A stretch of 33,958 nucleotides of DNA from positions 1-33,958 of IMG/VR virus record IMGVR_UViG_3300030103_003310; one strand, written 5' to 3'. The stretch comes from a virus. The notes under the pieces were generated by a model. The model was not told where the DNA came from. It saw only the letters and a list, made by a program, of their open reading frames with translations, and did not search any database. Of the stretch, positions 1,115 to 28,518 are shown piece by piece (within the stretch, counting starts at the first letter, position 1; the number at the start of each line of letters is the position of its first letter). The position numbers and the translations under genes were made by a program.

Positions 1115-1585
1115 TTACGCAATGTCAAAGTCTATATAAGTTATTGTTACTTCTTCGCCGGACTCTAAAACTTCCGCGATTGGCGGATATACTCTTTTGT
1201 AAGCATTTACAGAAGATCCAACAAACCCATCGCTACTGCCAAAATTTGCCTTTTGCGTATCACCTAAAAGTAAGCAACCCGCTGTATGTTCATCTGTATT
1301 ACCTGTGTGAATAAGAATGTATTCAAAATTAGGAACATTCCTTACCCAAAGCATGCCTTTATGCATTTCCCCGTACTTACTTATATATCTTCCATGAAAT
1401 CCTCCAACCTTCCGGAGAGTAACGTTATATGTTCCAGCAGGCACTCTTGTTTCACCGTACTTTTTAACGTCTCTGTGTTCGTCTTCGAGTGTATAGCATA
1501 AAAATCTTCGGCCATGTGTAACGTCAAATAATATTCCATTTGTAGAATCTTTTTGGCTGCTAAAACGCAATACTTCTAATTTCAT
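1115..1585 (-). CDS. DUF5675-like protein, putative peptidoglycan-active lysis protein
   Basis: The 156-residue protein resembles the DUF5675 family found in many phages. Visible marks are a TRVPAGTYNVTLRKVGGF segment (residues 46-63), then HKGMLWVRNVPNFEYILIHTGNTDEHTAGCLLLG-type features (residues 75-108) with a His-Thr-Gly-Asn and a downstream Ala-Gly-Cys. The spacing of His and Cys recalls YkuD-type L,D-transpeptidases, where such residues form the active site. A cell-wall role is therefore plausible, and the one-TM protein that follows would fit a lysis pair. The ATG overlaps the stop of the 2741-residue gene as TAATG, suggesting coupled translation. No catalytic activity has been shown in this entry; the family call is fairly confident and the enzymatic role is inference. 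Confidence 0.65.
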   Translation of the reverse strand: MKLEVLRFSSQKDSTNGILFDVTHGRRFLCYTLEDEHRDVKKYGETRVPAGTYNVTLRKVGGFHGRYISKYGEMHKGMLWVRNVPNFEYILIHTGNTDEHTAGCLLLGDTQKANFGSSDGFVGSSVNAYKRVYPPIAEVLESGEEVTITYIDFDIA

Positions 1586-4500
1586 TATTTATTCTTTTTC
1601 TTTCTTAATTGTATGATTTTATCAACCCTCATTTTTTCAGAAGTAAGCCCTTTTATATCGCCCGAGAATAATCCAAGTGAAACTAAAACTTGCTCTTGTT
1701 GTGTTTTAGTTAAATCATATATAGATTCCTCATCTATTATAGAATTGTCATCTATAATTTTTAACCTATTGGCTTCTTTTTCTTTCTTTTTAGCTGCTTT
1801 TTTAGCTTCTCTTTCTGCTTTTTCTGCGGCTTTTTGCTCTGGAGTTTTAGCAGCTTTTGCAGCTTTTTTCTCTTCAGCTTTTTGTTTTCTTTTTTCTGCT
1901 GCTTTTTTCTTACTTTCCTCCTTGCGCTTAACTTTTGCTTCCTCTTTTATAGATTCTCCTAATTCATCTTTTGCCCCAACATCCCATGTTTTCCAGCCTA
2001 ATGCTAAAGCAATTCGCTGGTAAGCTGTATTGCGGGCATCAAATGCTTCGGAAATAGAGGCTAATTCATCTACAACACGATCTAGCGGCAAATTAAATGC
2101 AGCAGAAGTAACTTTACCTAATATTGACCAGTTTGGCCCTAAGTCTAGTCTACCTTCACCGGTAACAGCCCACCCTCTGGCTTCTATTTCGTCTTTTTCA
2201 AACTTACGCGTTTTAATAGCTGAGTTTATTTTACGCGCTTTCGAACCAATAGGAGGAGATATATCAAATAAAGCTAATATAGTATAAGCATCGTCGCCTA
2301 AGAAACCTTTAGCGTCTTGTTTAATATATTCTCTTATTACGTTTTTAGTTGTAGCAAATACAGCGCCGTATAGACCAGAGCCTCTCAGTATAGTATCTAC
2401 CATGCTATTTACCACGCGAGTTACCCTTGCTTCGTCTTGTTTGTTTCTTTTTTCTGCTTCCTTTTGAGTTATATCTTCGTTTTCATCGTCGTCAAACCCT
2501 GGTATAAGCGAAAATAGTGCACTTTGCAATGAAGAGAATATCAAGTTTTGTATTGCGCCGTAATAAGCTATCTTGCTTACGTTTTCTTTCCAATCCCCTC
2601 TTTTATTTTTAAGGTCTAATGCAGCTTTTTTCATTAAACGAGCGTACTGCATAGGTGTGTTTTGGAAAGCGAACACTATACGTCCTAAAACACTTCTTTG
2701 TATCTGCGAAACCAATGCCGGATCAGAAGACTGCTGTGCTTCGTCAGACTTTTTAGAAAAATCAACAAACGCTTGTTCTTCCGCTTCTTTTTGGCTTTTC
2801 CCTTCTTTTAAATAACTGTTTACTCTATTTCTATAAAACGTAGCGCCGCCTGTTGCAATTGCAAAACTATCAGCTAACTGCGTAGGTTTAAAACCAATTT
2901 TTAATAGATAAGCAATTATTGCTTGAGGGCTATTTTTACTTTGGTTTGCCGCGCTAGCAATTTCGTTAGAGCTTACATCTTGTCTTAACCCTCCTCTACG
3001 CTCTTTAAGCTTAGCCGAGTTAAATATCATTGTCCAGTCTGACCAGTATTGCTTTTGATTAGCAAACGCGGCCGCAGCCTTAACTGGATTATTATCAGAC
3101 CAGTTAATAAAGTTAGTAGTCGAAAGCATCTGTAGCAACGCTGAACGACGGTTGAAGAACATGATAGCACCTGTAGATCCATTAATCCAATTCAACCATC
3201 TCCCTACGGTTTTATTTTGTCCTTGTTGACGGTTAGTACCGCTTTTCATTGAATATAAAGAATCTTCAATAGCCTCTCTATGCGATTTGCCGAATAGAGC
3301 TTCTATCTTATTTAAATTTTCTTTACTAAATATTATATCAGCGTTTTCTATAAATTCACTTAAGTATTCTTTACGTCCTACTTTTTCAGTTAATACGCTT
3401 AAATCAGATAGAACCGTACCACCTAGCCAATATTCTCCCGGCTGAATCCACTCTTTTCTTCGCCCTACTACCAACATAGCGTCGGCAAATTGCGTTAACT
3501 GCGGATTTTCTTGAACAGCATCTTGAAGAATTTTTAAATCTTTTTTAGAAACCCCTGGAATGTCAAATCCTGATTTTTGCCATAGATAAACACGAACGGC
3601 ATGGTCATAAGTAAACCCTGTATCGCCGATTTCTTTATTCAAAAGCTTGTATTGGGGGTAATAACTTTTTACAGCCGCTTTAAAATCACTTTTAATTTGC
3701 TGTCTAACCCCATCAATAGCTGCAATGCCTTTAGCATAAGGAGTCATAAGCTTTCCTTCCAGCCAAGCCATGTCTGCCTCACCCTGTTTCCCTCTTCCTG
3801 CAAAAGCATAATTTACAAGACCTCTAAAGTCGTCAACCGCCGGAGCTACAAAGAATTTAAATTTACCTTTACGCTGACCACGCATTTCTGCCTGAACATC
3901 GGAAAAACTTTTAAAAGACTCAACGCCTGTTTTGCGCTCTAATATTTCATTAAACTCTTCGCTTATTTGCGATCTAACAGCTTTAGAAGATTTAGTAACA
4001 GGCTTTGATTCTATTTCTTTTACTCTTTCAGCCGCTTCTTGATACGCTTTATTGTTTATTCTAAATTCTTCTAGTTTTTTATACGCGTCAGCCCACTCTT
4101 GTCCTTCAACACTACCGTCTTTAAAAGATTCAACAGCAAACTGTACTTTACCCTTCGTTAATACATTATAGTATCGGCCCCACGGAGATTTTTTGCCAGG
4201 AATATATCCATGCATCTGCACGCTGCCAAGACCAACATCACCAATAACCTTATCCATTGATTTAGGTATAATAGCAACAGCATAGTCTTTCTTTAATGCC
4301 GCCATGTCTAAAGAGTTGTCTCCTTGAACATAATGCTTATACATTAGACTCAGCACAACCCGCGCAGGAACTAAATGCTCGTATCTATAATCGCTAGCTT
4401 TTTTACTGTTAAAGTTTTTAGCGATGTGAGTAACAGGAGCTGCTAATCTTAAAACTGTATTTGTGCCAGAGTTCATAGCGGCCATAATCATAGCCTGCAT

Positions 4501-7500
4501 TTCTGGGCTTTTACCTTTTAAATCTTTAACTATTTCAGTAGTTAAGTTCCAAGCCTCGTTTGCTGCTTTTGCGTCTTGATCTTGTAGCTCTTTAGATGCT
4601 TTAAATTTATTATTTAAATATTTAGCTTGAACTGAAGCACTTGTTGCTATAGTTTCCGCGCTATTCCATTGTTCTTGAGTATACAATTTTCCTTCTCCAA
4701 CAAGCGCGCTTACAACATCAGCGGTATTGTAAAATAAATCGGCTCTGCTAGTGCCGCTAATTTCTCCGCTAGGTTTATACGGCCCTGTTTTTCCAGAATT
4801 AGCAAAAGTACTATTTATAAATGTTTTAGCGGTACCAACAGGTACTTTAGCTTTAGTAATAATATCTATTATTATATTTTTAGCCTCTAGTATATTATTT
4901 TTATTTCTAAATAATTCCGCTACAGAAGTAGCCGCTTTCGTAAGAGCGTGCACTTTTTCCCCAAAGTCTGCCTGGTTACTCATACCCTGCAGTATCTCCA
5001 TAAAGTCGCCGGTAACCGCCGCCACAGCTTCTACTTGTACGGCATTAACATTTTCAAATATTTTAGCTAGCTCTTTAGAAATCTGAGTGTATTGGCCACG
5101 CGTAAACAATTTATCTCCGTAAACAGCTTCTAGTTCTGTTCTTAAGTTTTTTGCAGTAATTCCTTCGCTAATACCTGCTAATCTATTACTTAGCTCTTCT
5201 TTTCCAGCTTCCCATGCCAACAGCTTTTCTTGGTCTATAACATTATCTTTAGTAAACGCTTTTCTTACCGCTGCTGATCTTTTAACATTACCTCTTTCAA
5301 TATCTCTGGCTACTTCTGTTACAAAATTTTCAGTAAGTACAACACCTTTTAATTCTTGATTTTGTTTAAAAGCCTGAGATATTTCGCTATTAGGATCTTG
5401 TAATGTCTCGTTAACTATTTCAAAAGAAATTTCTTCCGCCATAGCCTTAGCTAAAGACTCTTTTCTACCTCTAATTAATTTACCATCTGCCGTAAAAAAA
5501 TTTGACAAGAAATCAGCGTCAGGTAATCTGGTGCCAGCGTTGGGCAATCTCCTAACTATTTCCGCGCCCGATGTTCTACCAGCTTGGTCTGTTGTTACTT
5601 TTTCACGGTCAATTTTTTTGCCTTTCCAATTACTTGTAAATACGCCGTCAACTTGTTTTTGTATTGCGTTAGGTATAGCTGTCATCAAATATGTTGTGGT
5701 CATATTTTCTAAAATAGCAGCTTTATGTTTCAAAAGATATTTGCGCAATTGGCCGTCTTTAAGACCTCCCATTTCTTTTTTAAACTCAATGTCCGCTTGC
5801 TTACCCATCGTCTTCTTAATTTCAGCGATATAAGGTTTTACGGTAACATTTTTAGAAACAGCCTGGTCCATACGGGTTTTCATTACACGTACAGTTGACT
5901 TTACTTTATTTTTAACAGCTTCGACTCTATCTTTACTAAGTACATTTCTTTTTTGCAAAGACTTATACGTAGGCGCTTCTTTGACTGGAGCTGTTGTTTC
6001 CGCCTCTGTAGCAATTTGTTTAGCTTCTTTGCCGGTAATGTCTTCTACTGCAACTCCTCCAAAGTCTTCAACCCATATTGGATTTGCCTTAAATGCATCT
6101 TTTATACGGAAACTAATTCTACCATTTAAATACCCGTATAACGTGCCTCTGCCGTCGAACTTGCTTACATCTCTTTGAGTATATAGTCGCCCTACAACAT
6201 CAGCAACAGCTTCTTGCATGTCATTAATCTGAAGCCCTTTGTTGGTAAATTTAGAAAGCTGTGCCTGCGTCATGCCTTGCACTGTTTCGTATATTTCTAA
6301 ATCATTACCCTCGAGTCCTTCTTCTTGTACCTTGGCTAACGTAGCACGCGCTCTATCCGCGGCTTTTGACGCCTTGCTTTTCTTAGAAACCTTTGTTTCT
6401 TCCGCGGTAGCTTCGTTTTCTTGTATAAATTTAGTAACCGCAGCTTCAGCCTTTTCGTTGCTGCTGTTTTTAGAATATTGCGTAATAAACTCGAATGTTT
6501 CCTTGCCGCTATCTAAATTTAACTTTTTAGTTTTCCCAGGTATTGGAATACTATTAAAGAAATTTGTTATTTTTGCAACAACCCCTAAGTCAACGCTATT
6601 GCCTTCGTTAATATAATCTGAAAGCGCAGTTATTGCTTCTTCATAATATGCAGCATCTTTTACATCACCCTCTGTATAAAATACGTCAAGCTTATTCTTA
6701 ATATAAGCATAAGTTTCAGAAGAATTTTTTTCTAAATACTGCAGCAATTGTTCGCCGGCTTTATTCGCTTTGCCGTCTCCAATGCTCTGCTTTGTAATAG
6801 CATGAAACATCTCGTGCGTATAAACACCTGTTTGCGAGTTCTCAGCGGCTAGTTCTTTGTTTATATATATTATGTTTTCATCAGGATTAAATTCTCCTGT
6901 TGTATTAGCATCTCTAAATTTATCTTTATATTCTTTGTTAGTTAATTCAACAAATTCGGGTGCATTCTCCCCAAACGCAGATTTTAAAGCCACCGCTTTA
7001 GCCTTATTCTGTTCTAGCTTTTTATTATTATTTTCTAAATAAAAATTATTTTTTGCAGCAGACTCGTTGTTATTAGCTTCTTTTAATCTTCTAGCGCGCT
7101 CTTTGCCACTTAGTTTATCAAATGCCTGGTTAGAAGTGTTTTCTTTAAGCTGAACTTCATTTGCAAATACTATATTAGAGGCTTCTTTAAAAGCAAGCTC
7201 ACCCTGCACCTCGCTAACCTCCGCATCAGTAGCAACCTTAGAAAGCAGTTCGTTTCTTTGATTATTAAGTTTATCAAACTTACCCTGCAATTGATCCTTA
7301 GCCGCAGATATTTGGGATTGGCTAGCGGTGCCCTTAGCGATAGTTATCAACTGCTGATTAACCTGGCGCATTTTTAAATTAATTTCACCAAGCTCAAACC
7401 TTTGATCAGCCGTCATTCTATTGGTTAATCTTTCTATAGCAGCGTCATGTATTAGCTCACCTTCTTGCTGTATTTCTTTAATTAGATCAACAGTAGATGG

Positions 7501-9810
7501 GTCTAAGCCTTCCGGCAAAGGTAGTCTGGAATTTAATAGATTACTTAAATCTTTGTAGCCCGTTAAATCCCGAAGCTTTTTAATTTTATTTTGATATTCA
7601 GCAATTTCCTCTTTAGTCATTGCTTCGTGTGCAAGATGAGCATAAACCGCCGGCACCGCATGCTTAAGCTCTAAAGGGCCTCCTATTAAAGCACCTCCGA
7701 AATAACTTTCAGCAACACCATCAAAAACGTTTACATCTTCTCCTAAAATTCCAATTTTAGCAAAATTATTTGTAAGCTCAGTTCCCGCTTCGCTAAGACC
7801 CTCGCGATTAGCTGATTTAAGTACAGAAGCAGCGATTGCTCGTTTAGTTGGAACCGCTGATGTTACTTTATTAACACCCTTAAGTATAGCTAGCGTACCA
7901 AGCCTTTCAAAAATTACTTCCGCGGCGCCCCCAATAGCAGAAACGCTAAGCTGTTTCCAAGAAGGTAAGTCCAACGTTTCCTGAGCGGCGTCTGCTATTT
8001 CATTTAGCCTGTTAAAATCTTCTAGAGTAATTCCTTTACCTTCTTCAAATAAATATTCACCATTTTCGCCTTGTGCAAAGCCTGCTTGTTCAAAAGTGTT
8101 TTTAACACCAAGCAAACTATCGGCAGCCTCATATTCTTTTACAGCAAATTCACTAGCTTTACTACCAAAGCCGCTTAAAAAGAATAACGGCATAGCGGCA
8201 GATCCAGTAAAAGCCATGGTAAGAGAAGGAATGGCCTGCACGGTAGTATTTGCTGACCAGCTAATTATGTTGTCTAATACATTACCTTTATCTATTTCGC
8301 CTGTATATACATCTCCTTCAGTAAAAATATCTCCGAACGCGGTGCCTTGAGCAAAACTTTGCGATTCTAGCGCGTCTTCTTCCAACACATCTTTAAAATC
8401 AGCTTTACTTTTTGCAAGTCCTGCATCAAATCCTTGAAACCTAGAGGCTGACAATGTTGTAAGCAACTGATAAGCGCCATACCCAATCTTAATTGCTGTA
8501 GATTCAAATCCGCTAGAAAGCTTTGACATTAAACCATAGTCTAGCGAAAGTTGCTTAGCAATAGCCTCCAGCTCTTCAGCTTTAAAATCTTGCTGCAAAC
8601 TTCTTATTGCTGTTTCGTTTTTTTCTAGCTCCAGCAAAGCTGCATCGTATTTTGCTTTTTCCGCTTTTAGCGATTTAAACTCTTCTTCGCTAATTTTACT
8701 GCTATCTATTTTGCCGTTAATCAAAGGTAGTTTATTAACTTCACCTTCTAATTTACGCCCAAAATTTTCAATTTTTTGTTTAGCAACATTATAGCTTTCG
8801 TATTTATTAACGAGTTCTTGCGTTTGATAAGAGGCTACGGTTTCTAAAATCTCTCTATCTGCACTCGATAAATTTTGAGCTATTTGTTTTGATAATTTAT
8901 TTTTATTTTCATTATAGCCTTGATTTTTTAAAAACGACCGTCTTTCATCATCAATAACTAAATTGTTTTTTAAATAACCCAGGTATTCTTGATATTCTTT
9001 ATCAACATTCACCCCGAGGCCAACCTGATCACCTAACTTTTGAAAATCTTCCTTAGTAAGATTATCTCCTACTTCTTTTTTTATTGAAGCAAAATATTTT
9101 TTCTTATAGGCAAGTAAATCTTCAAACTTCCCGGTTAAATAATTTTCTTCGTTAAAGTCCTCTTTTAGCCCGGTTCGCGCATCTATAAGGTCTTTTTGAA
9201 CAGATAATAAGTTAGAAGCTTTTACTGTTTTAGCGCCGCCGAATGTAGACTGCAACCCTGTAGGAACTGCAACCATTTTATCACCTGCAATTTTACCGTA
9301 ATCTTCTGTTTTATTTTCTTCAATATGCTGGTTTATTTGAGCAATTCTTTTAGCAAAATCTTCTTTATTTAAATCTTTTAAATCGCTAACCTTAAATTGC
9401 TTAAAGCTTTCCATACCCGACCCATCAACTTTGTCGATGTTTATAAAATTGCCTAAAGCACCAAACAATGCGTCAACTTGGTTTACTTTTAAACCAACAG
9501 TTCTAAGCTTAGTTCGAATATTGTTCTCAATTTGCTGATTGCTGATTAATTTGTCTTCGTTATCTAAAAAATCATTTGCATTAAGTAGATAAGGTTTGTT
9601 ATTCTGCTCTTGTAAGTCCAAGGAAGTATTTTCCAAGCTGGACTCCGTATCGGACTGTACGGAGCCTGTGCTCTTTCCCGTTTTCTTCGGCTCTCCCTCG
9701 GAATAAGTATAGCCGTATTTTGTTGCCCACTCATTTACGCTTAACTCGTTAGCTGAAGCTGATTGAGCCGCATCTTCGTCAGTAATAGTGATGTCACCGT
9801 ATGTATACAT
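1585..9810 (-). CDS. Giant internal virion (polyvalent, DNA-ejection) protein with HExxH metallopeptidase motif
   Basis: At 2741 residues this is by far the largest gene, filling a quarter of the window. The N-terminal third is helical and charged. Hydrophobic, Gly/Ala-rich stretches lie at about residues 522-548 and 704-731, possibly membrane-inserting. A zincin motif HEMFH is at 999-1003, with a plausible third ligand in EEA at 1057-1059. A segment around 1218 (FDGRGTLYGYLNGRISFRIK) is reminiscent of sigma-70 region 2 helices. Another hydrophobic segment lies near 2411-2436. The C-terminus is a Lys/Ala/Glu coiled coil (about 2620-2680) followed by a short helical tail that could be SAP-like. 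By position after two smaller internal proteins it corresponds to T7 gp16, the ejected protein that spans the envelope. Multi-domain architecture with a protease matches phage polyvalent proteins, which enter the cell with the genome. No lytic transglycosylase domain was recognised. Confidence 0.7.
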   Translation of the reverse strand: MYTYGDITITDEDAAQSASANELSVNEWATKYGYTYSEGEPKKTGKSTGSVQSDTESSLENTSLDLQEQNNKPYLLNANDFLDNEDKLISNQQIENNIRTKLRTVGLKVNQVDALFGALGNFINIDKVDGSGMESFKQFKVSDLKDLNKEDFAKRIAQINQHIEENKTEDYGKIAGDKMVAVPTGLQSTFGGAKTVKASNLLSVQKDLIDARTGLKEDFNEENYLTGKFEDLLAYKKKYFASIKKEVGDNLTKEDFQKLGDQVGLGVNVDKEYQEYLGYLKNNLVIDDERRSFLKNQGYNENKNKLSKQIAQNLSSADREILETVASYQTQELVNKYESYNVAKQKIENFGRKLEGEVNKLPLINGKIDSSKISEEEFKSLKAEKAKYDAALLELEKNETAIRSLQQDFKAEELEAIAKQLSLDYGLMSKLSSGFESTAIKIGYGAYQLLTTLSASRFQGFDAGLAKSKADFKDVLEEDALESQSFAQGTAFGDIFTEGDVYTGEIDKGNVLDNIISWSANTTVQAIPSLTMAFTGSAAMPLFFLSGFGSKASEFAVKEYEAADSLLGVKNTFEQAGFAQGENGEYLFEEGKGITLEDFNRLNEIADAAQETLDLPSWKQLSVSAIGGAAEVIFERLGTLAILKGVNKVTSAVPTKRAIAASVLKSANREGLSEAGTELTNNFAKIGILGEDVNVFDGVAESYFGGALIGGPLELKHAVPAVYAHLAHEAMTKEEIAEYQNKIKKLRDLTGYKDLSNLLNSRLPLPEGLDPSTVDLIKEIQQEGELIHDAAIERLTNRMTADQRFELGEINLKMRQVNQQLITIAKGTASQSQISAAKDQLQGKFDKLNNQRNELLSKVATDAEVSEVQGELAFKEASNIVFANEVQLKENTSNQAFDKLSGKERARRLKEANNNESAAKNNFYLENNNKKLEQNKAKAVALKSAFGENAPEFVELTNKEYKDKFRDANTTGEFNPDENIIYINKELAAENSQTGVYTHEMFHAITKQSIGDGKANKAGEQLLQYLEKNSSETYAYIKNKLDVFYTEGDVKDAAYYEEAITALSDYINEGNSVDLGVVAKITNFFNSIPIPGKTKKLNLDSGKETFEFITQYSKNSSNEKAEAAVTKFIQENEATAEETKVSKKSKASKAADRARATLAKVQEEGLEGNDLEIYETVQGMTQAQLSKFTNKGLQINDMQEAVADVVGRLYTQRDVSKFDGRGTLYGYLNGRISFRIKDAFKANPIWVEDFGGVAVEDITGKEAKQIATEAETTAPVKEAPTYKSLQKRNVLSKDRVEAVKNKVKSTVRVMKTRMDQAVSKNVTVKPYIAEIKKTMGKQADIEFKKEMGGLKDGQLRKYLLKHKAAILENMTTTYLMTAIPNAIQKQVDGVFTSNWKGKKIDREKVTTDQAGRTSGAEIVRRLPNAGTRLPDADFLSNFFTADGKLIRGRKESLAKAMAEEISFEIVNETLQDPNSEISQAFKQNQELKGVVLTENFVTEVARDIERGNVKRSAAVRKAFTKDNVIDQEKLLAWEAGKEELSNRLAGISEGITAKNLRTELEAVYGDKLFTRGQYTQISKELAKIFENVNAVQVEAVAAVTGDFMEILQGMSNQADFGEKVHALTKAATSVAELFRNKNNILEAKNIIIDIITKAKVPVGTAKTFINSTFANSGKTGPYKPSGEISGTSRADLFYNTADVVSALVGEGKLYTQEQWNSAETIATSASVQAKYLNNKFKASKELQDQDAKAANEAWNLTTEIVKDLKGKSPEMQAMIMAAMNSGTNTVLRLAAPVTHIAKNFNSKKASDYRYEHLVPARVVLSLMYKHYVQGDNSLDMAALKKDYAVAIIPKSMDKVIGDVGLGSVQMHGYIPGKKSPWGRYYNVLTKGKVQFAVESFKDGSVEGQEWADAYKKLEEFRINNKAYQEAAERVKEIESKPVTKSSKAVRSQISEEFNEILERKTGVESFKSFSDVQAEMRGQRKGKFKFFVAPAVDDFRGLVNYAFAGRGKQGEADMAWLEGKLMTPYAKGIAAIDGVRQQIKSDFKAAVKSYYPQYKLLNKEIGDTGFTYDHAVRVYLWQKSGFDIPGVSKKDLKILQDAVQENPQLTQFADAMLVVGRRKEWIQPGEYWLGGTVLSDLSVLTEKVGRKEYLSEFIENADIIFSKENLNKIEALFGKSHREAIEDSLYSMKSGTNRQQGQNKTVGRWLNWINGSTGAIMFFNRRSALLQMLSTTNFINWSDNNPVKAAAAFANQKQYWSDWTMIFNSAKLKERRGGLRQDVSSNEIASAANQSKNSPQAIIAYLLKIGFKPTQLADSFAIATGGATFYRNRVNSYLKEGKSQKEAEEQAFVDFSKKSDEAQQSSDPALVSQIQRSVLGRIVFAFQNTPMQYARLMKKAALDLKNKRGDWKENVSKIAYYGAIQNLIFSSLQSALFSLIPGFDDDENEDITQKEAEKRNKQDEARVTRVVNSMVDTILRGSGLYGAVFATTKNVIREYIKQDAKGFLGDDAYTILALFDISPPIGSKARKINSAIKTRKFEKDEIEARGWAVTGEGRLDLGPNWSILGKVTSAAFNLPLDRVVDELASISEAFDARNTAYQRIALALGWKTWDVGAKDELGESIKEEAKVKRKEESKKKAAEKRKQKAEEKKAAKAAKTPEQKAAEKAEREAKKAAKKKEKEANRLKIIDDNSIIDEESIYDLTKTQQEQVLVSLGLFSGDIKGLTSEKMRVDKIIQLRKKKNK

Positions 9811-9832
9811 GTGCTGTTGTATTTTATTTTAT

Positions 9833-11050
9833 TTATTTAAGCTGCGTAGCTATTTTAGGTAATGCTTTTTTAACATCAGATATGCTATCATAAATCCCCA
9901 TTGGAAGTCCATTCTCATTAATGACATATTTGCCATCACTACGTTTTTTAAACTCATAGGTACCGACTCTAAAAGTTTTTCCCTCGTTTTCTAAAGCGTT
10001 GTAGCTTTCGGAATATCTTAAGCTACCTTGGTATTGTTCCATTGATTTTGCCTGCAGGTCCTTAGCCATTAACTCAGCAGTTTTTTTAGCAGCTTTTTTC
10101 AGTGCTCCCGGAGTGTATTCACCATTGTTCTTTACCTTACTGCTTTCTAACTCTTGGTAAATATCATCATACGCTTGCTCGGTAGCGGTGCGTTGTTGAG
10201 TAGGATCTTCTACTTCAATCGTAGCGCCAGCCATAGGCGCCGCGCCGTCAGCATCTGCAGAAACAACAGGTATATCTCCTCTTCTTTCTTTTAATATACC
10301 AACAACACTAGACCTTGTTTCTAGCATTTTTGCATACCCAGCCGTTGCCGCAACAACTTGACCTTCAGTCATAGCTCTACCTGAATTAAGCACGTTAGTC
10401 GTTTGCTTTTGATCAAATTCTAAAACCTGCGGGAGGTCGTCTGTAGGAAATTTATATGTATCTAAATCAATTGGTTCTTCACCGGCAACCTTAAAAGAAA
10501 TCTTTCCGGTTTTTGGATCGATTTTCATATCCGCACCACCTTGAAATATAGCGGTTGCAATCTTTCTTTCTGAATCACTAAGGCCTTCTGGCAACTTCCC
10601 GTTTTTTCGTATTTCCGCGTCAAAGGTATTACGCATTTGATCAAACCTTGCTATTTGCTTTACTGCTACAGCTGTATGGTCGTTAACGCCCTGCATTAAA
10701 TTCTTACCTTCGGTATAGCCTTCTCCAAAAGGATCTTCACTATTTGCTACCGCTAAATTTGCGCCTTCAGCGTATGTTTTTTTACCTTCTGTTAAAAAAT
10801 TTGTAATTGCACCCCTATATTGAGGATCTGTTACAGCGCTCATGTCAATGTTAGTACGCTGGTCGGCAAACTCTAATATCTTTTGATCTTCTTCTTTCTT
10901 TTTTTGAATATTTTGTTCAACAAGAGAAGCAATTTTTTCAGCGCTTTTAGAAAAGCCTTTTGTAAATCCCTCTGCAGCTGATTTAGCTCTCAGGCTTTTT
11001 GCTGCTGCTAAATTTTGTGCGCTTTGTACTAATGTTACGTCTGCTGCCAT
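9833..11050 (-). CDS. Internal virion protein (T7 gp15-like position)
   Basis: The 405-residue product is predicted to be mostly helical and hydrophilic, rich in Ala, Lys, Glu and Gln. The N-terminal 60 residues look like an amphipathic, coiled-coil-prone helix (EKIASLVEQNIQKKKEEDQK). A more beta-like patch is at the C-terminus (KTFRVGTYEFKKRSDGKYVI). There is no signal peptide or TM segment. It sits between a 197-residue Ala/Gln-rich protein and the 2741-residue giant, the small-medium-giant order of the T7 gp14-gp15-gp16 ejection proteins. A structural role inside the capsid or in the ejection conduit is inferred from this order. No enzymatic motif is seen. It is separated by 22 A/T-rich bases from the giant gene. 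Confidence 0.6.
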   Translation of the reverse strand: MAADVTLVQSAQNLAAAKSLRAKSAAEGFTKGFSKSAEKIASLVEQNIQKKKEEDQKILEFADQRTNIDMSAVTDPQYRGAITNFLTEGKKTYAEGANLAVANSEDPFGEGYTEGKNLMQGVNDHTAVAVKQIARFDQMRNTFDAEIRKNGKLPEGLSDSERKIATAIFQGGADMKIDPKTGKISFKVAGEEPIDLDTYKFPTDDLPQVLEFDQKQTTNVLNSGRAMTEGQVVAATAGYAKMLETRSSVVGILKERRGDIPVVSADADGAAPMAGATIEVEDPTQQRTATEQAYDDIYQELESSKVKNNGEYTPGALKKAAKKTAELMAKDLQAKSMEQYQGSLRYSESYNALENEGKTFRVGTYEFKKRSDGKYVINENGLPMGIYDSISDVKKALPKIATQLK

Positions 11051-11054
11051 GCTT

Positions 11055-11648
11055 TTATTCTTTTTCGTATTGGTCGGCTAAATAAGTGGCGCCACCCAAG
11101 GCAACACCACCTGCAATTGAACCAATTCCTTGAGCTATTGCCTGTTGATTTGCTTGCCTTGCCGCTATTGCCTGTGCCGCTTCCGCCTGATCCATGCCTA
11201 AAACAGTAGCTGTTCTATCCATCTCTCTTTTTTGACGATTCTCTTCGCCGGTTGCTATGCGAACTTGGTTAGTAGCCTCTTGTTGGCCTATATTAGCTGA
11301 AATTTGTCTTGCCGTATCTGCTTGCGCGCCGATGGCTGCTTGAGCTAATGCCGCAATTCCGCTGCCGCCTGCTGCACCTCGTAGTGCCTGTAGCGTGTTT
11401 GCTGTAGATTGTTGTGATTGTGCGGCCTGGAAATCAGCCTGCTGCGTATTAACCTTAAGATCTTCAAATGGATTGCTAATATCTTGGCTAAGATAATTTT
11501 CCTTACTTCTTTCCATAGCAGCGAGTGCTCTAGCTTCACGCTCTTTAACTTCTCTTTGCTGTTGTAATCCACCTATAAGAGAGCCGGCACCTTCTATAAT
11601 TGCTGGAGCAGCTTGAATTGCCGCCATCGCTAAAATTGGAATTCCCAT
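11055..11648 (-). CDS. Small Ala/Gln-rich internal virion protein (T7 gp14-like position)
   Basis: The 197-residue product has hydrophobic, Gly/Ala-rich ends (ILAMAAIQAAPAIIEGAGSLIGG near the start; GIGSIAGGVALGGATYLADQ near the end). These flank a long Ala/Gln/Arg-rich amphipathic helical core. The architecture, a short protein with membrane-active termini and a helical middle, is typical of phage internal core proteins such as T7 gp14, which forms an outer-membrane pore during ejection. It lies directly after the tail-nozzle gene and before the two larger internal proteins. The leader contains a 17-base motif also found before the scaffold gene. Function is inferred from composition and order; no specific family is named. 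Confidence 0.6.
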   Translation of the reverse strand: MGIPILAMAAIQAAPAIIEGAGSLIGGLQQQREVKEREARALAAMERSKENYLSQDISNPFEDLKVNTQQADFQAAQSQQSTANTLQALRGAAGGSGIAALAQAAIGAQADTARQISANIGQQEATNQVRIATGEENRQKREMDRTATVLGMDQAEAAQAIAARQANQQAIAQGIGSIAGGVALGGATYLADQYEKE

Positions 11649-11661
11649 ATTTAATTAATTT

Positions 11662-11678
11662 TATACTGTTATTATTAC
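11662..11678 (-). repeat. 17-bp intergenic motif, copy 1
   Basis: On the minus strand this reads GTAATAATAACAGTATA and sits 13 bases before the ATG of the 197-residue internal protein gene. An exact copy lies at 21551-21567 before the scaffold gene. Both are followed by an A/T-rich stretch containing AATTA. It could be a promoter element, a processing site or a translation leader; the sequence alone does not decide. Confidence 0.7.
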
Positions 11679-11684
11679 GTGGTA

Positions 11685-14600
11685 TTAGCTGCTTATAAAC
11701 ACTTCTGTACCAACTGCAAATAATTCATTTTTACCTGTTCCTGTATTTGTAAACTTAGCTTTGTTAAAATATCCTGATATTCCAGATGTATTAGCTATAG
11801 TGTCTTTTGCAAAAAACGCAAAGTCCCCACCACCTGAGTTTGGTAAAACTGCCGGCACGTCAGACCCTTGTTTTACAACTCTAACACTAGGCACTGATTG
11901 ATCTACGCCTGTTATTTTTCCTAGTTTGTATATTTTAGAGTTAGAATTGCTTACATAAAAGAACTGATCGTTAACCTGTAAGGAATTTGGCAATATAACG
12001 TCCGATGCAAAAGCTATGTTAACCGTAGCAAGCGAATAATCTCCGGCAATCATAGTCCCTATACCCTGTATTGCAAATTCTGCTGTGTCTAAATTACCGG
12101 TTTGCGTGCCTCCGGAATGCGATAACGCGTTGCTCCACGTTAAAGCATCTCCTGTAATAAAGTTGTAGTACTTGCCCTCTTTTTCTTTAAAAGTATTACT
12201 ACCTAAAGATGCTGTTAGCCCTGGGTCTAAAGTACCCGACGTAATACCGTTTTGAACATCTGTTTCTAAATCTACAGTCCAACCAGAATCACCTTCATAA
12301 AATACAGTCTTATAATGCTTTATTGAAGAAGGAGCATCGTTAAAAATTACAGTAACATCCGTGCTTCCCTGTACGCCGTAAAAATTAGCCCTAGTTGTGT
12401 TATCATGTTTCCACATGCTGCCACTTTTAAAGCTATAGTAATTGTTATTTAATGATATCGCAAATTCAGGCTGGTAGCTTAGCTTCGTACACCATCCTTG
12501 GTTCCCTTCGTCGTATGATACTTGTTCGCTATCAACTCTTAAATTATAAGAACCAGCAGATTCGTCATATGAGCCGTTTAGAGGATTTGTAGTGGCTTTA
12601 AATTTATCTTCAAAGTAATCAGATAAACCCTGCTCAGATATTTCTGTAAGGCCGTTTCTAGACAGTCTTAATACTGCGCCTCTAGATTTATCGGTAAAAT
12701 ATGCTCTAAAGCCATAGCTTACAAAAGATTCTGGATTTTTAGATATACCAAACTCTCCAACGAATGGTATAACCTGGCCTAATACATTGTTACTTGCAGT
12801 AAGCTGAGGGCTGCCATCAGCATTAAACAGGGCGTCCTTATCTGCTAATATTTGGAAACACTTGTCTTCACATAACGTTAATAGGTCGCCATCTCTTGCG
12901 TATAACTTCTGTATAGAACCGTTTCTAGGGTTAATATCCTTAGTTATGTTTTCCGCAATTATAAATTGATTAGAATTATTAACGCCCGCTCTAGAGTTAA
13001 CAATTCCACTAAAAATCATGCTCGAGCCTTTTAATTCTTCTTTAAAATCTGTTTTAAGTACAGAGCTAACCTTTACTCCTTTGCCTATGCTAGGCGCGTT
13101 GAAGTCGTCCGCAATTCGCGTAGATTCCACCCCGTTCCCAAAAGCTATACAATTAGAATAGTCTAAAAATTTAGTATCGTTTAAATCTGCTATTTCAAAC
13201 GCAGAAGACGCCTCAAAATAAATATCTAAGTCTATATTTTTTTCAGGTTTAATTTCAAAAACAGCTGGATTAGAAGTTAGTAATTGAGCTGAAGAGCTTC
13301 CTAATATTTCTAAACCGTCTATTCTTGTAGCAGCAATGTCGCTACCACCGTAATTTCTGTCTAAAGTTATTGTTTTAGTATCGTACTTGTTTTGCCCGCC
13401 TGAATATGTTTTTTCAGCTTCGCTTCCAATAGCCGTTATGGTATATACATCACTGCGATTATCACCATCTTTAAACCTTATGCTTGCGCCCACCACCGCT
13501 CTGTCGTAAATATCTTTAACGCTGTTTACATCAGCGCTCTTTGGCCCGTGTACCAACGTAAAATCAGTGCTACTGCTTCCCGGGTTAGTCCCGCCAAACG
13601 AACCACCGCTTGTATCCGTGTCGGTTCCTAAACCAAAACTTAATTGCGCTACTTTCTTTTTTTGGTAAACATCGGTAAACGATCTACGCAGGCGCTGCGC
13701 GCTAAGCAAGGCGTCAAACTTTCTTTTTACAAAAATACTAACTTCTAGAGGGTTGTCCGCGCTTATATCTTCAACGAAAGAAGGATAAACTACATTTGGT
13801 GGTCTTGACTGAGCGCCTCCAATAGCTGAAATGGGGGTGCCTGCAATTACCTGAACATTTGATTCGTCACTTTTTGACGGAATAATAATGTCCTGTGTAA
13901 AGCTAGCTCTTTTTTCAACTTTTACAAAAAATCTACCTAAATACTCATTTTTAGTTATATTGTCTTCGCCGTGAAAAATAATTTCTAATCGATCGGCGGT
14001 CGCGGATAAAGCATTTAAATAAGATTGGTCTGCTGTGTTGACAGCTTCCTCTAATAAAAAATGATATTCTTCATGAGGCGACGATGCGCTAAAATCATAT
14101 CCAACACCACCGCTTTTTATTTTATAAATTTTACTTAGTATATTTACTTCGCTGGACCCACCGTCATTAGGCTTTGAAAACTGTATTCCCCTAGCTTTAT
14201 TTGCTGCGTTAAAAAAAGCTTCGTTAGCATCACGATCTGGCCCTAAAAACCTAACTTGTTTTGGAGTAGCCGCCTGTACAACACCTATACTGCTGACAGG
14301 TTTAACCAAAGCCTTCGCTAATACATCTAGGTTTGTTAGTTTTAAAGATTCTGGCGGCGAGTTTTGAATATCTATAACCTTGTACTCGTTATCTAAGGTA
14401 ACAGGTATAGATTCGCCGTGTTGCTTTTTTAATACAAGTATATCTTTTTCAGTTATTTTATTTCTTTCCGCCGACGGAAAACTTAGCCAGTAGTTACCGT
14501 CTTCCGCATCGTAAAATCTATCTAACAATAAATTATATTCTGTAGAATAGTTATCTTTAATATAATATTTGTAAAACTTAGCCCAAGAAGGGGCCGCGCT

Positions 14601-16316
14601 TTTTACAGACACAGCAATTTGATTAGCCAGGGCACTTTTATCTTTGCCAATTGCTAATGTTGCGCTATTGTTTGTTATTACAGGCGACTCTCTGTTAAAA
14701 TCATCTAAAAACGCAACGCCCACCTGGTATGTTTTATCAGACTTTACAGACGGCAAACCCGCACTTTTTTCAGCACCTCCCGTGTCAGTTGGGAAAGAAT
14801 CATCCCCAACAATGTTTAAATCAAACGTAGGCTTATCAGACGGTTCGTCATACCCTTCTGTATAGTTGCCATAAACAATTCTATTTGCGATTATTTCTTG
14901 AGCCAATGCTTTTTTAGGCACTGCGTCAAATAATCGAAGCAATTGAGAACTATCCAATAAAGGCCCATCAAGCTCTTTATTTATAATAAATTTATCAAAC
15001 TCTCCGTCGCTAGCAATCGCAGCAAAAGGAGGGTTTTCGCCGATTACATTTGTTGACGCCGCTTTTAATTGCGCTGTTTTAATAACGTATATGTTATTGC
15101 TTTTAGTAGATTTATATAGAACCTCTACAAATTCTACATCTCTCGGGGGTCCAAATGTAGTTAGCCTTTTAGGAAAAGTAAGCTCGATGCGGCGAAGATG
15201 ATTAATCATAGCTTCGTTTTCGGCTTCCATACTTTCGTATTCATAAACCCCGGGTATAAATGCAGGCTCAGTGAAAGGTGCTATGGCTGAATATTCACCG
15301 TCGGTATATTTCCATCTATAAGAAAATCTAGGAAATTCTCTTTTATATATAAACTCAGGCTCTATTATAACGATGCTCCAAGGCACTGCGCTATTAGGAA
15401 TATCGGTAGGAATTGTTATAGGCGTTACTGTTAAAGAACTAGAAGTAACGGCTGTTACATTCGCGGTTACAATATATTTTTCATTTACTCCCTTGTCGTT
15501 CCGTATGGTAGCTCTTAATTCAATATTTTTGTTTTTAAAAACAGGATGTAAAATAGTATCTGTGAAGTTAAGAGTTTGCGATCCGGTTACGGGAAATACT
15601 CCGCCGCTGAAATTGAATGCATTACAAATTATAGGGTCTATTCCCGTGCCGCTAAGTGTGCCGGTAAGTATATCACTGGCATACAATTGCATAAAAGCCG
15701 CCTGCATAGGCGCTTTTTTAATAACATTTATATCTTCTGCTGTAAAAACTATTTGTGCATTAGTTTTTTTACTTAATAAAGTTGTTGTAGCAGTTATGGT
15801 TGCGCTGCTGCCTGTGTTAGTAGGTGACGCTTTAAATGTAGATATATTTATTTTTCTAGGCTCATTGAGGTTGTCGGTAAAAAACAACATGTCATCAATA
15901 ATATTAATACCAGTAATTAAATTATTAGCATTAAAACCTAAAACTTGATCATCACCTGTTCTTATATCAGCAATTATAACAGATATAATAGATGTTGCTT
16001 CGTCGTATTCTAAAATAGCACTCTTGCTGTTGCTGTCTACAACAAACCAATATATTTTGTTATTTTGAGTATCTCTAGTGCCTCCGATGCATTGCGGAGA
16101 GCTTAATCCAAATCCGGCTGTCCATAAATCGCCGTCGGTATTTCTTTTTAACTGCTGAGTATTACCCAAAATAGTTTCAATAGCTCCAACGTCCGAACCT
16201 TCCGATGTTGCAACCTGTATATTGGTAGCATCGAAATATTCGCCGATAGGCAATAGTCTTTCGTCAAGGTCTTGATTCATTCGACCCTTTAAGAACGTGC
16301 GTTTTAATTCAGGCAT
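11685..16316 (-). CDS. Tail nozzle (muzzle/stabilisation) protein
   Basis: The 1543-residue protein opens with the motif LKGRMNQDLDERLLPIGEY (residues 9-27), followed by DATNIQVATSEGSDVGAIE. This N-terminal signature is shared by a widespread family of long podovirus tail-tube end proteins, including crAss-like muzzle or stabilisation proteins. The rest is predicted to be beta-rich, with many Thr/Ser/Gly turns and repeated strand patterns, consistent with a propeller-like or multi-barrel tail component. There is no signal peptide, TM segment or enzymatic motif. It comes three bases after the neck protein of 303 residues and before the internal virion proteins, the usual place of a tail nozzle. 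Family recognition is from the N-terminal motif; the exact position in the virion is inferred. Confidence 0.75.
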   Translation of the reverse strand: MPELKRTFLKGRMNQDLDERLLPIGEYFDATNIQVATSEGSDVGAIETILGNTQQLKRNTDGDLWTAGFGLSSPQCIGGTRDTQNNKIYWFVVDSNSKSAILEYDEATSIISVIIADIRTGDDQVLGFNANNLITGINIIDDMLFFTDNLNEPRKINISTFKASPTNTGSSATITATTTLLSKKTNAQIVFTAEDINVIKKAPMQAAFMQLYASDILTGTLSGTGIDPIICNAFNFSGGVFPVTGSQTLNFTDTILHPVFKNKNIELRATIRNDKGVNEKYIVTANVTAVTSSSLTVTPITIPTDIPNSAVPWSIVIIEPEFIYKREFPRFSYRWKYTDGEYSAIAPFTEPAFIPGVYEYESMEAENEAMINHLRRIELTFPKRLTTFGPPRDVEFVEVLYKSTKSNNIYVIKTAQLKAASTNVIGENPPFAAIASDGEFDKFIINKELDGPLLDSSQLLRLFDAVPKKALAQEIIANRIVYGNYTEGYDEPSDKPTFDLNIVGDDSFPTDTGGAEKSAGLPSVKSDKTYQVGVAFLDDFNRESPVITNNSATLAIGKDKSALANQIAVSVKSAAPSWAKFYKYYIKDNYSTEYNLLLDRFYDAEDGNYWLSFPSAERNKITEKDILVLKKQHGESIPVTLDNEYKVIDIQNSPPESLKLTNLDVLAKALVKPVSSIGVVQAATPKQVRFLGPDRDANEAFFNAANKARGIQFSKPNDGGSSEVNILSKIYKIKSGGVGYDFSASSPHEEYHFLLEEAVNTADQSYLNALSATADRLEIIFHGEDNITKNEYLGRFFVKVEKRASFTQDIIIPSKSDESNVQVIAGTPISAIGGAQSRPPNVVYPSFVEDISADNPLEVSIFVKRKFDALLSAQRLRRSFTDVYQKKKVAQLSFGLGTDTDTSGGSFGGTNPGSSSTDFTLVHGPKSADVNSVKDIYDRAVVGASIRFKDGDNRSDVYTITAIGSEAEKTYSGGQNKYDTKTITLDRNYGGSDIAATRIDGLEILGSSSAQLLTSNPAVFEIKPEKNIDLDIYFEASSAFEIADLNDTKFLDYSNCIAFGNGVESTRIADDFNAPSIGKGVKVSSVLKTDFKEELKGSSMIFSGIVNSRAGVNNSNQFIIAENITKDINPRNGSIQKLYARDGDLLTLCEDKCFQILADKDALFNADGSPQLTASNNVLGQVIPFVGEFGISKNPESFVSYGFRAYFTDKSRGAVLRLSRNGLTEISEQGLSDYFEDKFKATTNPLNGSYDESAGSYNLRVDSEQVSYDEGNQGWCTKLSYQPEFAISLNNNYYSFKSGSMWKHDNTTRANFYGVQGSTDVTVIFNDAPSSIKHYKTVFYEGDSGWTVDLETDVQNGITSGTLDPGLTASLGSNTFKEKEGKYYNFITGDALTWSNALSHSGGTQTGNLDTAEFAIQGIGTMIAGDYSLATVNIAFASDVILPNSLQVNDQFFYVSNSNSKIYKLGKITGVDQSVPSVRVVKQGSDVPAVLPNSGGGDFAFFAKDTIANTSGISGYFNKAKFTNTGTGKNELFAVGTEVFISS

Positions 16317-18922: not shown

Positions 18923-20344
18923 TTACTTGAACAATACGAAATTGTTAGCAGCCAATGTACAAAGAGTACGCTCAGACAAGTAATGAACACGCATTACATC
19001 TTCAGCGCTCGTGAAGTTGCCACCAGCAGAACCAGTAACCCAAGACTTCATACGACGATCTTCGTTAGCATTTGCGCGGTAACGCACGTGCAAGAATGGA
19101 CGAGAAATGTTCTGACCCAATGTTTCGTCATATACAGAAGAAGTACCGGCAGGAACCAATACACCTTCGATACCACCAACGAATCCACGAGTTGTAGAAT
19201 CATTCAAGTATTTCCAGTCAGTTTTGTAGAAGTCGTAAGAACCACGACGGAAACCAGAGAAACCTAAGTTCAATGCCATGTTTTCGTCATTTTCAAACAC
19301 ACCGTAAGAAGTACCACCAGCACCGTAAGAGTTCTGAGCAGCTAGCATGTTGTCAATTTCCAAAGACTTAGCGCGATCTAAGAAAAGCATGTTTTCTTCG
19401 ATAGAACCTTGCTTGTCTAATTCAGCCAATAGGTCGTCGAATTGAGAAAGACCACCAGCGCCGTCGAAGTCAGTACCAGAGTACTGGATACCGCGAGACT
19501 CGATAGCAGCAAATAAACCTTCCATACCTTCGAAACCTGCAGCACCTGCAGAACCTGCACCTGAACCACCAGCTTCAGCTTCAATCATAGCCATTTCAAT
19601 GTGATCCATGAAACGTAGACGAGCTTCGCTTTCAGCCTTCATGTACCACAAGTAACCAGAAGCACCAGCTTCAGTAGTAACTTCGATCCAGCCAATCTGA
19701 GCTAGGTTAGAAGCATCAACGTTGTAGTGGTCACGTAGAATGATCGGCTTGTTGCTGAATGTTTTTACATCCGGCTCAACAGCTTGACCAGGAGCAGAAG
19801 ATGCACCAGAGCCTTTAGCGTACTCAGAACCGAAGATAAACATTTTACAACCAGCTACATCACCTGTTCCAAGAGCAGATGCATCAGTAGCACCGTAAAC
19901 TTCGAAACCGAATGTACCAGCAGAAGTATCAACAGACTTAATGCGTCCTTTTACTTCAGCAGTACCTTTAGTAATGATAATTGTTTGACCAACAGCCAAT
20001 AGGCCAGACTGAGTAGCACCACTTACCGCGCCGTCAGCAGCGATTGTAGCACCGTCAGTAGCGTCTTGATCGTCAACGTCTACAGTTACTGTAAACGCAG
20101 CGTGCAAGCGACCTTGCTCAGACCATACAACGCGGTCAGATTGCAAAGGCATTTCTGCACCTACCATAGATAGGAAACCAGAGATAGTACGCTTACCGAA
20201 GCGCTCTACTTCTTTTTCAAGAACTTCCGGTAACTCGAATGAGTTATCAAAGTTCATAGCGCTAAGGGCGATATAGTTTTCGCCAGTAGCTTGCTTGATA
20301 GGACGTGGAGTTACACCACTAGTCCCAATTGTTAATGTTGCCAT
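18923..20344 (-). CDS. Major capsid protein (HK97-type fold predicted)
   Basis: The 473-residue protein follows the acidic scaffold gene and is closed by a strong terminator, the expected position of the major capsid protein. The N-terminus (ALSAMNFDNSFELPEVLEKE, then VERFGKRTISGFLSMVGAEM) fits an N-arm. A beta-rich block (about residues 85-190) may be an inserted accessory domain. It is followed by a long helix region (GYLWYMKAESEARLRFMDHI, spine-helix-like) and a C-terminal beta-rich P-loop-like portion (RPFLHVRYRANANEDRRMKS). The codons are visibly more GC-rich and more uniform than those of neighbouring genes, consistent with very high expression. It has no protease partner next to it, and cleavage is not evident. 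The HK97 fold is inferred from role and pattern rather than from a matched motif. Confidence 0.82.
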   Translation of the reverse strand: MATLTIGTSGVTPRPIKQATGENYIALSAMNFDNSFELPEVLEKEVERFGKRTISGFLSMVGAEMPLQSDRVVWSEQGRLHAAFTVTVDVDDQDATDGATIAADGAVSGATQSGLLAVGQTIIITKGTAEVKGRIKSVDTSAGTFGFEVYGATDASALGTGDVAGCKMFIFGSEYAKGSGASSAPGQAVEPDVKTFSNKPIILRDHYNVDASNLAQIGWIEVTTEAGASGYLWYMKAESEARLRFMDHIEMAMIEAEAGGSGAGSAGAAGFEGMEGLFAAIESRGIQYSGTDFDGAGGLSQFDDLLAELDKQGSIEENMLFLDRAKSLEIDNMLAAQNSYGAGGTSYGVFENDENMALNLGFSGFRRGSYDFYKTDWKYLNDSTTRGFVGGIEGVLVPAGTSSVYDETLGQNISRPFLHVRYRANANEDRRMKSWVTGSAGGNFTSAEDVMRVHYLSERTLCTLAANNFVLFK

Positions 20345-21550: not shown

Positions 21551-21567
21551 TATACTGTTATTATTAC
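21551..21567 (-). repeat. 17-bp intergenic motif, copy 2
   Basis: This is the exact minus-strand GTAATAATAACAGTATA also present at 11662-11678. Here it overlaps the TAA stop of the portal gene and ends 20 bases before the scaffold ATG. A TATAAT-like string follows it. The placement just upstream of two late genes makes a promoter or processing element possible. Confidence 0.7.
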
Positions 21568-27738: not shown

Positions 27739-28518
27739 TTAAGATGGCACATTCGTGCTGAAAGCAGGGCCATTAGTTAGAGTAGCTGTGTTTGAATTTG
27801 CAGAGCTGTCTGCCACTGTTGAACCCGAGCCTTCTTCCATTCTCCAATATGCAATTAATCCACTTTCTTCTGTTAAATCTGTTGGAACACCGCTGTTGTA
27901 AAAGTTTTGTATTTCGCTTTGAGTTTTTGTTGAGTTAAATACAGCAATTTCGTCCATCAATCCATCATGAGCATTGCTGCCCAAGTTAGAGCCTATTGAT
28001 AACTTATCAGAATTATTAGCTATTGTAACCCCGCTTCCTTGATCTTCGCTGCTAAATCTAACGCCGTTCATGTACATATTGAACCCGCTAGAAGACATGG
28101 TTACGCCTACGTGAACCCATTGCCCCGTTGGTATTGGACTGGAGCTGTGATTAGCATGCATAAAATTTCCAGGCACTTGAACCTGCAGCCTTGGCCCGTT
28201 GCCGCTGCCGCCGTCTCCAGCGATAGCTATTCCGAAGCCGGAGCTAAAAAGATTAGATCCTTTTCTAAATAAGTCTCTAGCTGTATTAAAAGTTCCAGGT
28301 AGCGTATCAAAGTTAACCCACATACTTACAGTAAGATTTGTTAACCCATCTAAGATAGTAATATCGCCGCAATCTAAAAAATCATTAGTACCGTCAAAGC
28401 TCATAGAAAACGCATTTTCAAATCCGCTTTTTTGGCGATGAAAAATTATTCGGCGAAGCGCGATTCGTTCGTCAAGCCCAATTCCGTGAGTGCTAATTCC
28501 GTCGTGAACATTTGCCAT
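27739..28518 (-). CDS. LamG/concanavalin A-like domain protein, putative receptor-binding or decoration protein
   Basis: In this 259-residue protein, residues about 37-215 form a LamG (LamG_3-like) jelly-roll domain. FSMSFDGTNDFLDCGD and LTNLTVSMWVNFDT mark the first strands, followed by GQWVHVGVTMSSSGFNMYMN, and HDGLMDEIAVFNSTKTQSEI with NFYNSG close the domain. A further YWRMEEGSGSTVADSS block (about residues 226-241) resembles the start of another LamG unit. The N-terminal 35 residues are probably an attachment segment. LamG domains bind carbohydrates or proteins, and phages often carry them on fibers or capsid decoration. No signal peptide. The domain call is strong; its location on the virion is inferred from neighbouring small structural genes. 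Confidence 0.8.
   Translation of the reverse strand: MANVHDGISTHGIGLDERIALRRIIFHRQKSGFENAFSMSFDGTNDFLDCGDITILDGLTNLTVSMWVNFDTLPGTFNTARDLFRKGSNLFSSGFGIAIAGDGGSGNGPRLQVQVPGNFMHANHSSSPIPTGQWVHVGVTMSSSGFNMYMNGVRFSSEDQGSGVTIANNSDKLSIGSNLGSNAHDGLMDEIAVFNSTKTQSEIQNFYNSGVPTDLTEESGLIAYWRMEEGSGSTVADSSANSNTATLTNGPAFSTNVPS

Follow-up and report, generated by a model that had tools for sequence, protein, structure and literature searches.

What does the largest gene of an uncultivated virus encode, and why does its product carry the signature of a zinc peptidase? The window analyzed here is the whole of IMG/VR virus record IMGVR_UViG_3300030103_003310 (33,958 nucleotides), and its largest gene starts with ATG and encodes a protein of 2741 residues (P0001). 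The initial annotation described P0001 as an ejection protein with a metallopeptidase motif, delivered with the DNA and perhaps serving to disarm defense or remodel the envelope. The extent and length of this open reading frame were confirmed, and its strand, which had not been given, is minus.

Genome context and a probable ejection cassette

The gene order is terminase, portal, scaffold-like protein, capsid, tail proteins, a 1543-aa tail protein, a 197-aa protein, a 405-aa protein and the giant (Table 1), and it resembles that of Manatee Spring podovirus, Elemovirus and Cellulophaga phage phi38:1. The portal is 55%, 42% and 36% identical to the portals of these three phages, respectively. 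Its sequence puts the phage close to Elemovirus, Pervagoviridae and Pachyviridae, and these identities make a Bacteroidota bacterium the probable host.

The position of T7 gp16, proposed earlier for the giant gene, holds by synteny, as the 197-aa, 405-aa and giant genes follow the head and tail genes. The 197-aa protein has a hydrophobic, Gly-rich N-terminus, and no family match was found for the 405-aa protein. The order and sizes of the cassette are kept at 126 loci, with a protein of median 241 aa whose start is usually hydrophobic and Gly-rich, a protein of median 482 aa, and then the giant. The two upstream proteins are P22-like in size (P22 gp7 and gp20 have 229 and 471 aa; PMC8954989), and the cassette as a whole resembles P22 gp7/20/16 or N4 gp52/51/50. 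P0001 shares with T7 gp16 and P22 gp16 its position after gp14/gp15-like genes and a helical C-terminal part (PMC8954989), but no sequence similarity to them was found and the structural similarity, at Z of about 3.5, is within noise.

Proteins in the same slot of phages phi40:1 (gp101) and phi18:3 (gp123) are virion proteins by MS/MS according to their record annotation; they have the slot in common with P0001, without detectable sequence similarity. The same-slot proteins of phi38:1 and phi13:2 are near-identical or close relatives of these two, that of phi38:1 being near-identical to the MS/MS-verified phi40:1 protein, and neither contains HExxH. Phage phi18:1, which the phi38:1 note names as the MS/MS source, is a different phage and was set aside; the MS/MS notes are found in phi40:1 and phi18:3. 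It is quite likely that P0001 is an ejected virion protein.

Several other minus-strand genes of the window were observed. A DUF5675 protein (1115-1585) directly follows the giant gene, a thioredoxin-like protein (398-748) has a signal-like hydrophobic start, and a Laminin_G_3 (concanavalin A-like lectin) protein (27739-28518) is a possible adhesin. The phage encodes a GroEL (31523-33091), and related phages carry GroEL/GroES too. Another HExxH (HEKVH) occurs near the structural genes in a 118-aa protein (30218-30574) with no Pfam or NCBIfam match.

Table 1. Features of the giant gene, its protein and the neighboring structural genes (window coordinates)
Feature	Position	Strand	Basis
Giant probable ejection protein, 2741 aa (P0001)	1585..9810	minus	ORF and translation; end of structural operon
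Variable N-terminal region, aa 1-900, possible payload	7111..9810	minus	homology maps between pairs of relatives
Zincin-like metallopeptidase module, aa about 940-1125	6436..6993	minus	alignment, AF2 model, PDB matches, phrog_4415
HEMFH, predicted zinc-binding and catalytic motif, aa 999-1003	6802..6816	minus	invariant in 58 relatives
E1058, predicted third zinc ligand	6637..6639	minus	invariant in 58 relatives; 58/60 in independently collected set
Central conserved region, aa 1196-1512	5275..6225	minus	conservation vs nearest relatives
Conserved helical C-terminal domain, aa 1931-2621	1948..4020	minus	conservation in relatives, AF2 model
Lys/Glu/Ala-rich tail, aa 2622-2741	1588..1947	minus	sequence
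405-aa second ejection-cassette protein (position of T7 gp15, P22 gp20)	9833..11050	minus	position, size
197-aa first ejection-cassette protein (position of T7 gp14, P22 gp7)	11055..11648	minus	sequence, cassette conservation
1543-aa tail/virion structural protein upstream of cassette	11685..16316	minus	phrog_14478 E 3e-139
Probable major capsid protein (family annotated virion structural protein)	18923..20344	minus	phrog_13704 E 1e-92, synteny
Portal protein	21564..23987	minus	phrog_6547, tblastn

A predicted gluzincin domain in P0001

Searches of P0001 against Pfam, NCBIfam and PDB sequences returned nothing significant, Pfam matches to PMI1 and BRCA2 being under the cut-off and taken as noise, and tblastn found no relatives of the whole protein in cultured phages. 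No Pfam domain was found in aa 1-900. The main part of the central region is 46-71% identical to the nearest relatives. A second enzymatic domain besides the zincin was not found; no match to a single-subunit RNA polymerase domain was obtained in Pfam, PHROGs, NCBIfam or PDB sequences, and no transglycosylase domain was detected. Among the features noted initially, the Lys/Ala coiled-coil tail corresponds to a real Lys/Ala/Glu-rich segment at about aa 2622-2741. The hydrophobic patches are weak, with no clear transmembrane helix and no 19-residue window reaching a Kyte-Doolittle mean of 1.5.

HEMFH lies at aa 999-1003, as annotated. P0001 contains no second HExxH and has only 15 histidines, and HExxH arises in 0.6% of its composition-preserving shuffles. 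A first zincin family was collected by a scan for the HExxH pattern (69 loci), in which complete ORFs bearing the module each encode about 2,000-3,000 aa. The first alignment with IMG/VR relatives had the H, E, H and a downstream Glu all invariant, and in an alignment of 58 sequences the invariant columns were H999, E1000, H1003, I1005 and E1058. The last of these lies outside the pattern used for the search; by alignment it is the second E of YYEE, and it corresponds to the third ligand previously placed near residue 1057. Among profiles, phrog_4415 ("peptidase") matches P0001 precisely across the motif (E 0.002). The P0001 zincin has no matching Pfam or NCBIfam model, and the Pfam profile of Peptidase_M78/IrrE (PF06114) matches 4 of the 59 zincin members weakly, at best with E 0.015.

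The AF2 model of the zincin, with a core pLDDT of about 90, consists of a strand (55-59), a helix (62-72), two strands (84-87 and 92-96), a helix (108-122) holding HExxH at 111-115, and a helix (169-180) holding Glu 170, all in model positions. The motif thus lies within a predicted zincin fold, since the three-stranded sheet, the HExxH helix and the Glu helix are all present, and the core topology, strand-helix-strand-strand-helix(HExxH)-helix(Glu), is that published for the MPTases of polyvalent proteins (PMC5512222). When the model was compared with the PDB by VIA-align, M34 ranked first (Z 6.2, about 154 aligned residues); M34-type folds fill the 23 best rows (Z 4.0-6.2) and other zincins come next, with M9 collagenases after M34 and ERAP1, IrrE/PprI (Z 2.9) and ArdC lower. 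A Z of about 6 for the best rows is modest, and Foldseek alone gave no match to the PDB below E 0.1. Matches among viral models (BFVD) include giant phage proteins of the polyvalent type, an Elemovirus structural protein and a vRNAP. A chance HExxH was ruled out by shuffles and by the rarity of control motifs. The zincin-type assignment of the metallopeptidase motif is thus backed by the conserved tetrad, the predicted fold and the structural matches, and P0001 very likely holds a real zincin domain. Judged from alignment and model, it is most likely of the gluzincin type, with H999, H1003 and E1058 as predicted ligands and E1000 as predicted general base.

Retention and exchange of the zincin

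The best conserved part of P0001 is the C-terminal domain, with about 50% column identity. It has no Pfam family, and PHROGs gives only stray matches. Its AF2 model is all-helical (pLDDT 82, pTM 0.80), and weak rows only were obtained in searches for PDB structure or sequence relatives. Two T7-like gp16 cores, 7eyb_I and 8vb2_A, align to the model at Z 3.5 and 3.4; these rows are within noise and serve as a lead only. Transporter rows were rejected as helical-bundle noise. A profile search did not find homology between this domain and the giants of Elemovirus, Callevirus and Pachyviridae.

Since the first family had been found by its HExxH pattern, and was hence biased toward the motif, retention was retested by scanning IMG/VR for the C-terminal domain with patterns that lack HExxH. 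At least 575 loci were confirmed, and the best 80 of these (L091-L170) were kept; remoter relatives may differ. Exactly one HExxH is present in 69 of the 71 proteins of this best-80 set with a complete 5' end. Shuffles of the 71 gave on average 0.35 proteins with exactly one HExxH, and at most 3. Of the control motifs, HxExH is present in one of the 71 and HQxxH, HKxxH and EHxxH in none. The distance from HExxH to the C-terminus has a median of 1859 aa (IQR 1813-1957) in the same best-80 set. About half of its proteins match the zincin profile and the rest are divergent, nearly all of them with the downstream Glu. Across 60 non-redundant zincin regions with a mean identity of 19%, only the H, E, H and Glu (58/60) exceed 90% conservation, and in an unanchored alignment of 16 giants from the C-terminal set no column ahead of about aa 2100 is invariant except those of the tetrad. 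The C-terminal domain was also detected in genome collections, mostly in Bacteroidota MAGs; some matches fall in other MAGs, for which binning errors are possible.

L140 lacks HExxH in its giant ORF, and the motif sits in the adjacent overlapping upstream ORF, which makes it the 70th protein; here the giant gene (L140:3585-12106) is present as two overlapping ORFs, 3585-7895 and 7880-12106, by a real split or a frameshift. L163 is an intact relative truly without the module, and in L008 (3707-12022) HDILH replaces HExxH at aa 940-944 of an otherwise intact giant. The zincin is thus not absolutely required. Other enzyme modules are patchy among the 71: a HAD phosphatase motif (DFDDTL), absent from P0001, occurs in 33 and a P-loop kinase in 6. 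Cargo in relatives includes P-loop kinase/Zeta toxin, ART-PolyVal, LPD23, LPD14 and DUF3293 domains. Examples are a Zeta-toxin-like kinase (L019:7415-15781, aa 1880-2035), ART-PolyVal (L083:6317-15241, aa 1827-1987) and LPD23 with SprT-like domains (L072:6146-15112, aa 1798-1930). The 3859-aa giant of MW202828 (L013:741-12320, minus strand) has two HEFGH motifs, at aa 1615 and 2500.

Zincin distances are uncorrelated with C-terminal distances (Mantel rho 0.04, permutation maximum 0.14). L091 and L099 have C-terminal domains that are 93% identical and zincins that cannot be aligned, with homology back at 79% about 65 residues past HExxH, and L111 and L117 are similar. Residues 1-98 of L149 and L153 are 95% identical, the next several hundred are unrelated, and 82% identity is back from 137 residues before HExxH. 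Among 63 close backbone pairs, the zincins are unalignable in 23, the zincin is kept and the N-terminal region is not in 15, and both are kept in 25. In pairwise maps, homology breakpoints flank the zincin on either side. Between close relatives the zincin has a dN/dS of 0.03-0.2, i.e., purifying selection, which argues for replacement rather than relaxed drift. Taken together, the homology maps suggest that the zincin has been replaced repeatedly between backbones, and the protease looks indispensable yet replaceable in this family of giant proteins.

An N-terminal leader of about 50-100 aa is shared by several relatives that then diverge or are replaced; it is conserved ahead of the replaced region (aa 1 to about 50-100) in L149/L153, L113/L120, L111/L117 and L165/L169, and is possibly a packaging or ejection signal.

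Proposed self-processing and its alternatives

P0001 can be compared with known giant proteins. Polyvalent proteins with an MPTase (Iyer et al. 2017, PMC5512222) are likewise very large, lie in a late structural neighborhood and combine HExxH with a helical Glu, and their ART-PolyVal, LPD23 and LPD14 domains (Pfam polyvalent domains) recur in relatives of P0001. The initial label "polyvalent" fits P0001 as a giant with an MPTase in such a neighborhood; the strict sense, with several disparate enzymes per chain, was observed only for relatives, the zincin being the one enzyme found in P0001. The near-universal, single-copy zincin of this family also differs from the polyvalent proteins surveyed, about 36% of which carry one (PMC5512222). 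The N4 vRNAP, gp50, is a giant that comes last in an ejection set of three proteins (with gp51 and gp52); as in P0001, a large and mostly helical part (C2) comes after its HExxH domain (C1) (PMC12633501). HExxH is preceded by 998 residues in P0001 versus more than 2100 in N4 vRNAP, no RNA polymerase was detected in P0001, and its C-terminal domain has no detected similarity to that of N4. The annotated structural protein elemoF of Elemovirus (3694 aa) occupies the same operon slot as P0001, and its zincin belongs to the same subfamily (HEIFH, profile E 8e-28), but its C-terminal region differs and it has an extra DUF3293 (record note).

We infer for P0001 its presence in the virion, its ejection, its protease activity and a target in cis. 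In this view a podophage-like Bacteroidota virus would have three internal ejection proteins, of which P0001 would be the largest; its one intact gluzincin would sit between an N-terminal half that varies and a helical C-terminal half that is conserved. It would be packaged whole, leave through the tail together with the DNA or ahead of it, and refold in the cell. There the zincin would cut mainly in cis, next to itself, so that the variable payload at the N-terminus comes free and the C-terminal part stays at the DNA-entry apparatus. We give this account as a whole, an ejected giant with a gluzincin cutting mainly in cis, about an even chance, and it is the best explanation we have; that self-processing after ejection is the main role of the zincin has, by itself, a little less than that. 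Self-processing of the giant is equally or more likely than the disarming of defense or remodeling of the envelope suggested in the initial annotation, and cis-processing of the giant protein has already been proposed for such domains (PMC5512222). Its near-universal, single-copy retention suggests a role needed in every infection, and retention amid patchy other cargo marks the zincin as a housekeeping part, as cis-processing predicts. Given the free exchange and the breakpoints at its edges, the module would bring its own substrate site or meet a variable one. No cleavage site could be identified in the giant protein.

Alternatively, the zincin could be injected as an effector and cleave proteins of the host in trans, acting on defense or on envelope proteins that obstruct entry, and different hosts would then select different versions and cause frequent replacement. 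We hold this to be a tentative possibility. Iyer et al. allow such a role (PMC5512222), the adjoining cargo in relatives is effector-like (ART-PolyVal, Zeta-toxin-like kinase, HAD phosphatase), and the independence of zincin from backbone divergence (Mantel rho 0.04), with unalignable zincins on backbones 93% and 89% identical, would follow from it. A dispensable part in an arms race should be patchy, however, yet one copy is present in 69 of 71 proteins among the best 80 of at least 575 relatives, and close pairs are under purifying, not diversifying, selection. It is improbable that the zincin is an assembly enzyme that processes head or ejection proteins no later than packaging and is itself merely packaged along. 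The giant gene does lie in the late structural operon, and PMC5512222 cites the precedent of P1 DdrB, cleaved to about 76 kDa ahead of packaging, but an assembly protease should track the conserved structural parts, whereas this one is exchanged independently of the C-terminal domain, and N4 vRNAP, with its HExxH domain, is packaged unprocessed (PMC5512222).

The N4 result bears on cis-cleavage as well, which is not seen in N4 vRNAP, at least before ejection. Early self-cleavage meets its main objection here: besides being packaged unprocessed, N4 vRNAP is stable as a recombinant full-length protein, which stays intact to a degree that allowed cryo-EM of residues 1007-3500 (PMC12633501). Relatives L163 and L008, and the same-slot proteins of phi38:1 and phi13:2 that have no HExxH, also speak against the favored account. 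Little probability is likewise left for a metal-binding structural or non-proteolytic HExxH domain. HExxH is found in non-proteolytic enzymes too (N4 preprint, PMC12633501) and HDILH in L008 is a natural variant, but E1000 and E1058 are as invariant as the His ligands where the rest is down to 19% pairwise identity, which is more than a purely structural role would require. We therefore favor cis-processing over host-directed, assembly and non-proteolytic roles, the four being not strictly exclusive.

Metallopeptidase domains in ejected giant phage proteins are of an already known kind (polyvalent MPTase, N4 vRNAP). The obligatory but swapped zincin slot and the Pfam-less C-terminal domain look new, being undescribed in the openly licensed papers searched. 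A zincin that is almost always present, single-copy and exchanged suggests a function under strong selection with a sequence that is free to change. A bolder reading, which we consider rather unlikely, is that every virion of a large uncultured phage lineage injects a giant combining a conserved helical delivery or DNA-entry domain with a variable N-terminal payload freed by a co-delivered, interchangeable zincin in an obligatory, polymorphic slot; if true, this would be the phage counterpart of polymorphic toxins with a releasing peptidase. The C-terminal domain, at no fewer than 575 loci and with genome-collection matches mostly in Bacteroidota MAGs, marks a large unannotated phage group. 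The family provides a sharper handle on the role of metallopeptidases in ejected giant phage proteins such as N4 vRNAP and P1 DdrB, and because the same zincin subfamily occurs in Elemovirus, for which Flavobacterium sp. BAL314 serves as the culture host, cutting of self versus host is directly testable.
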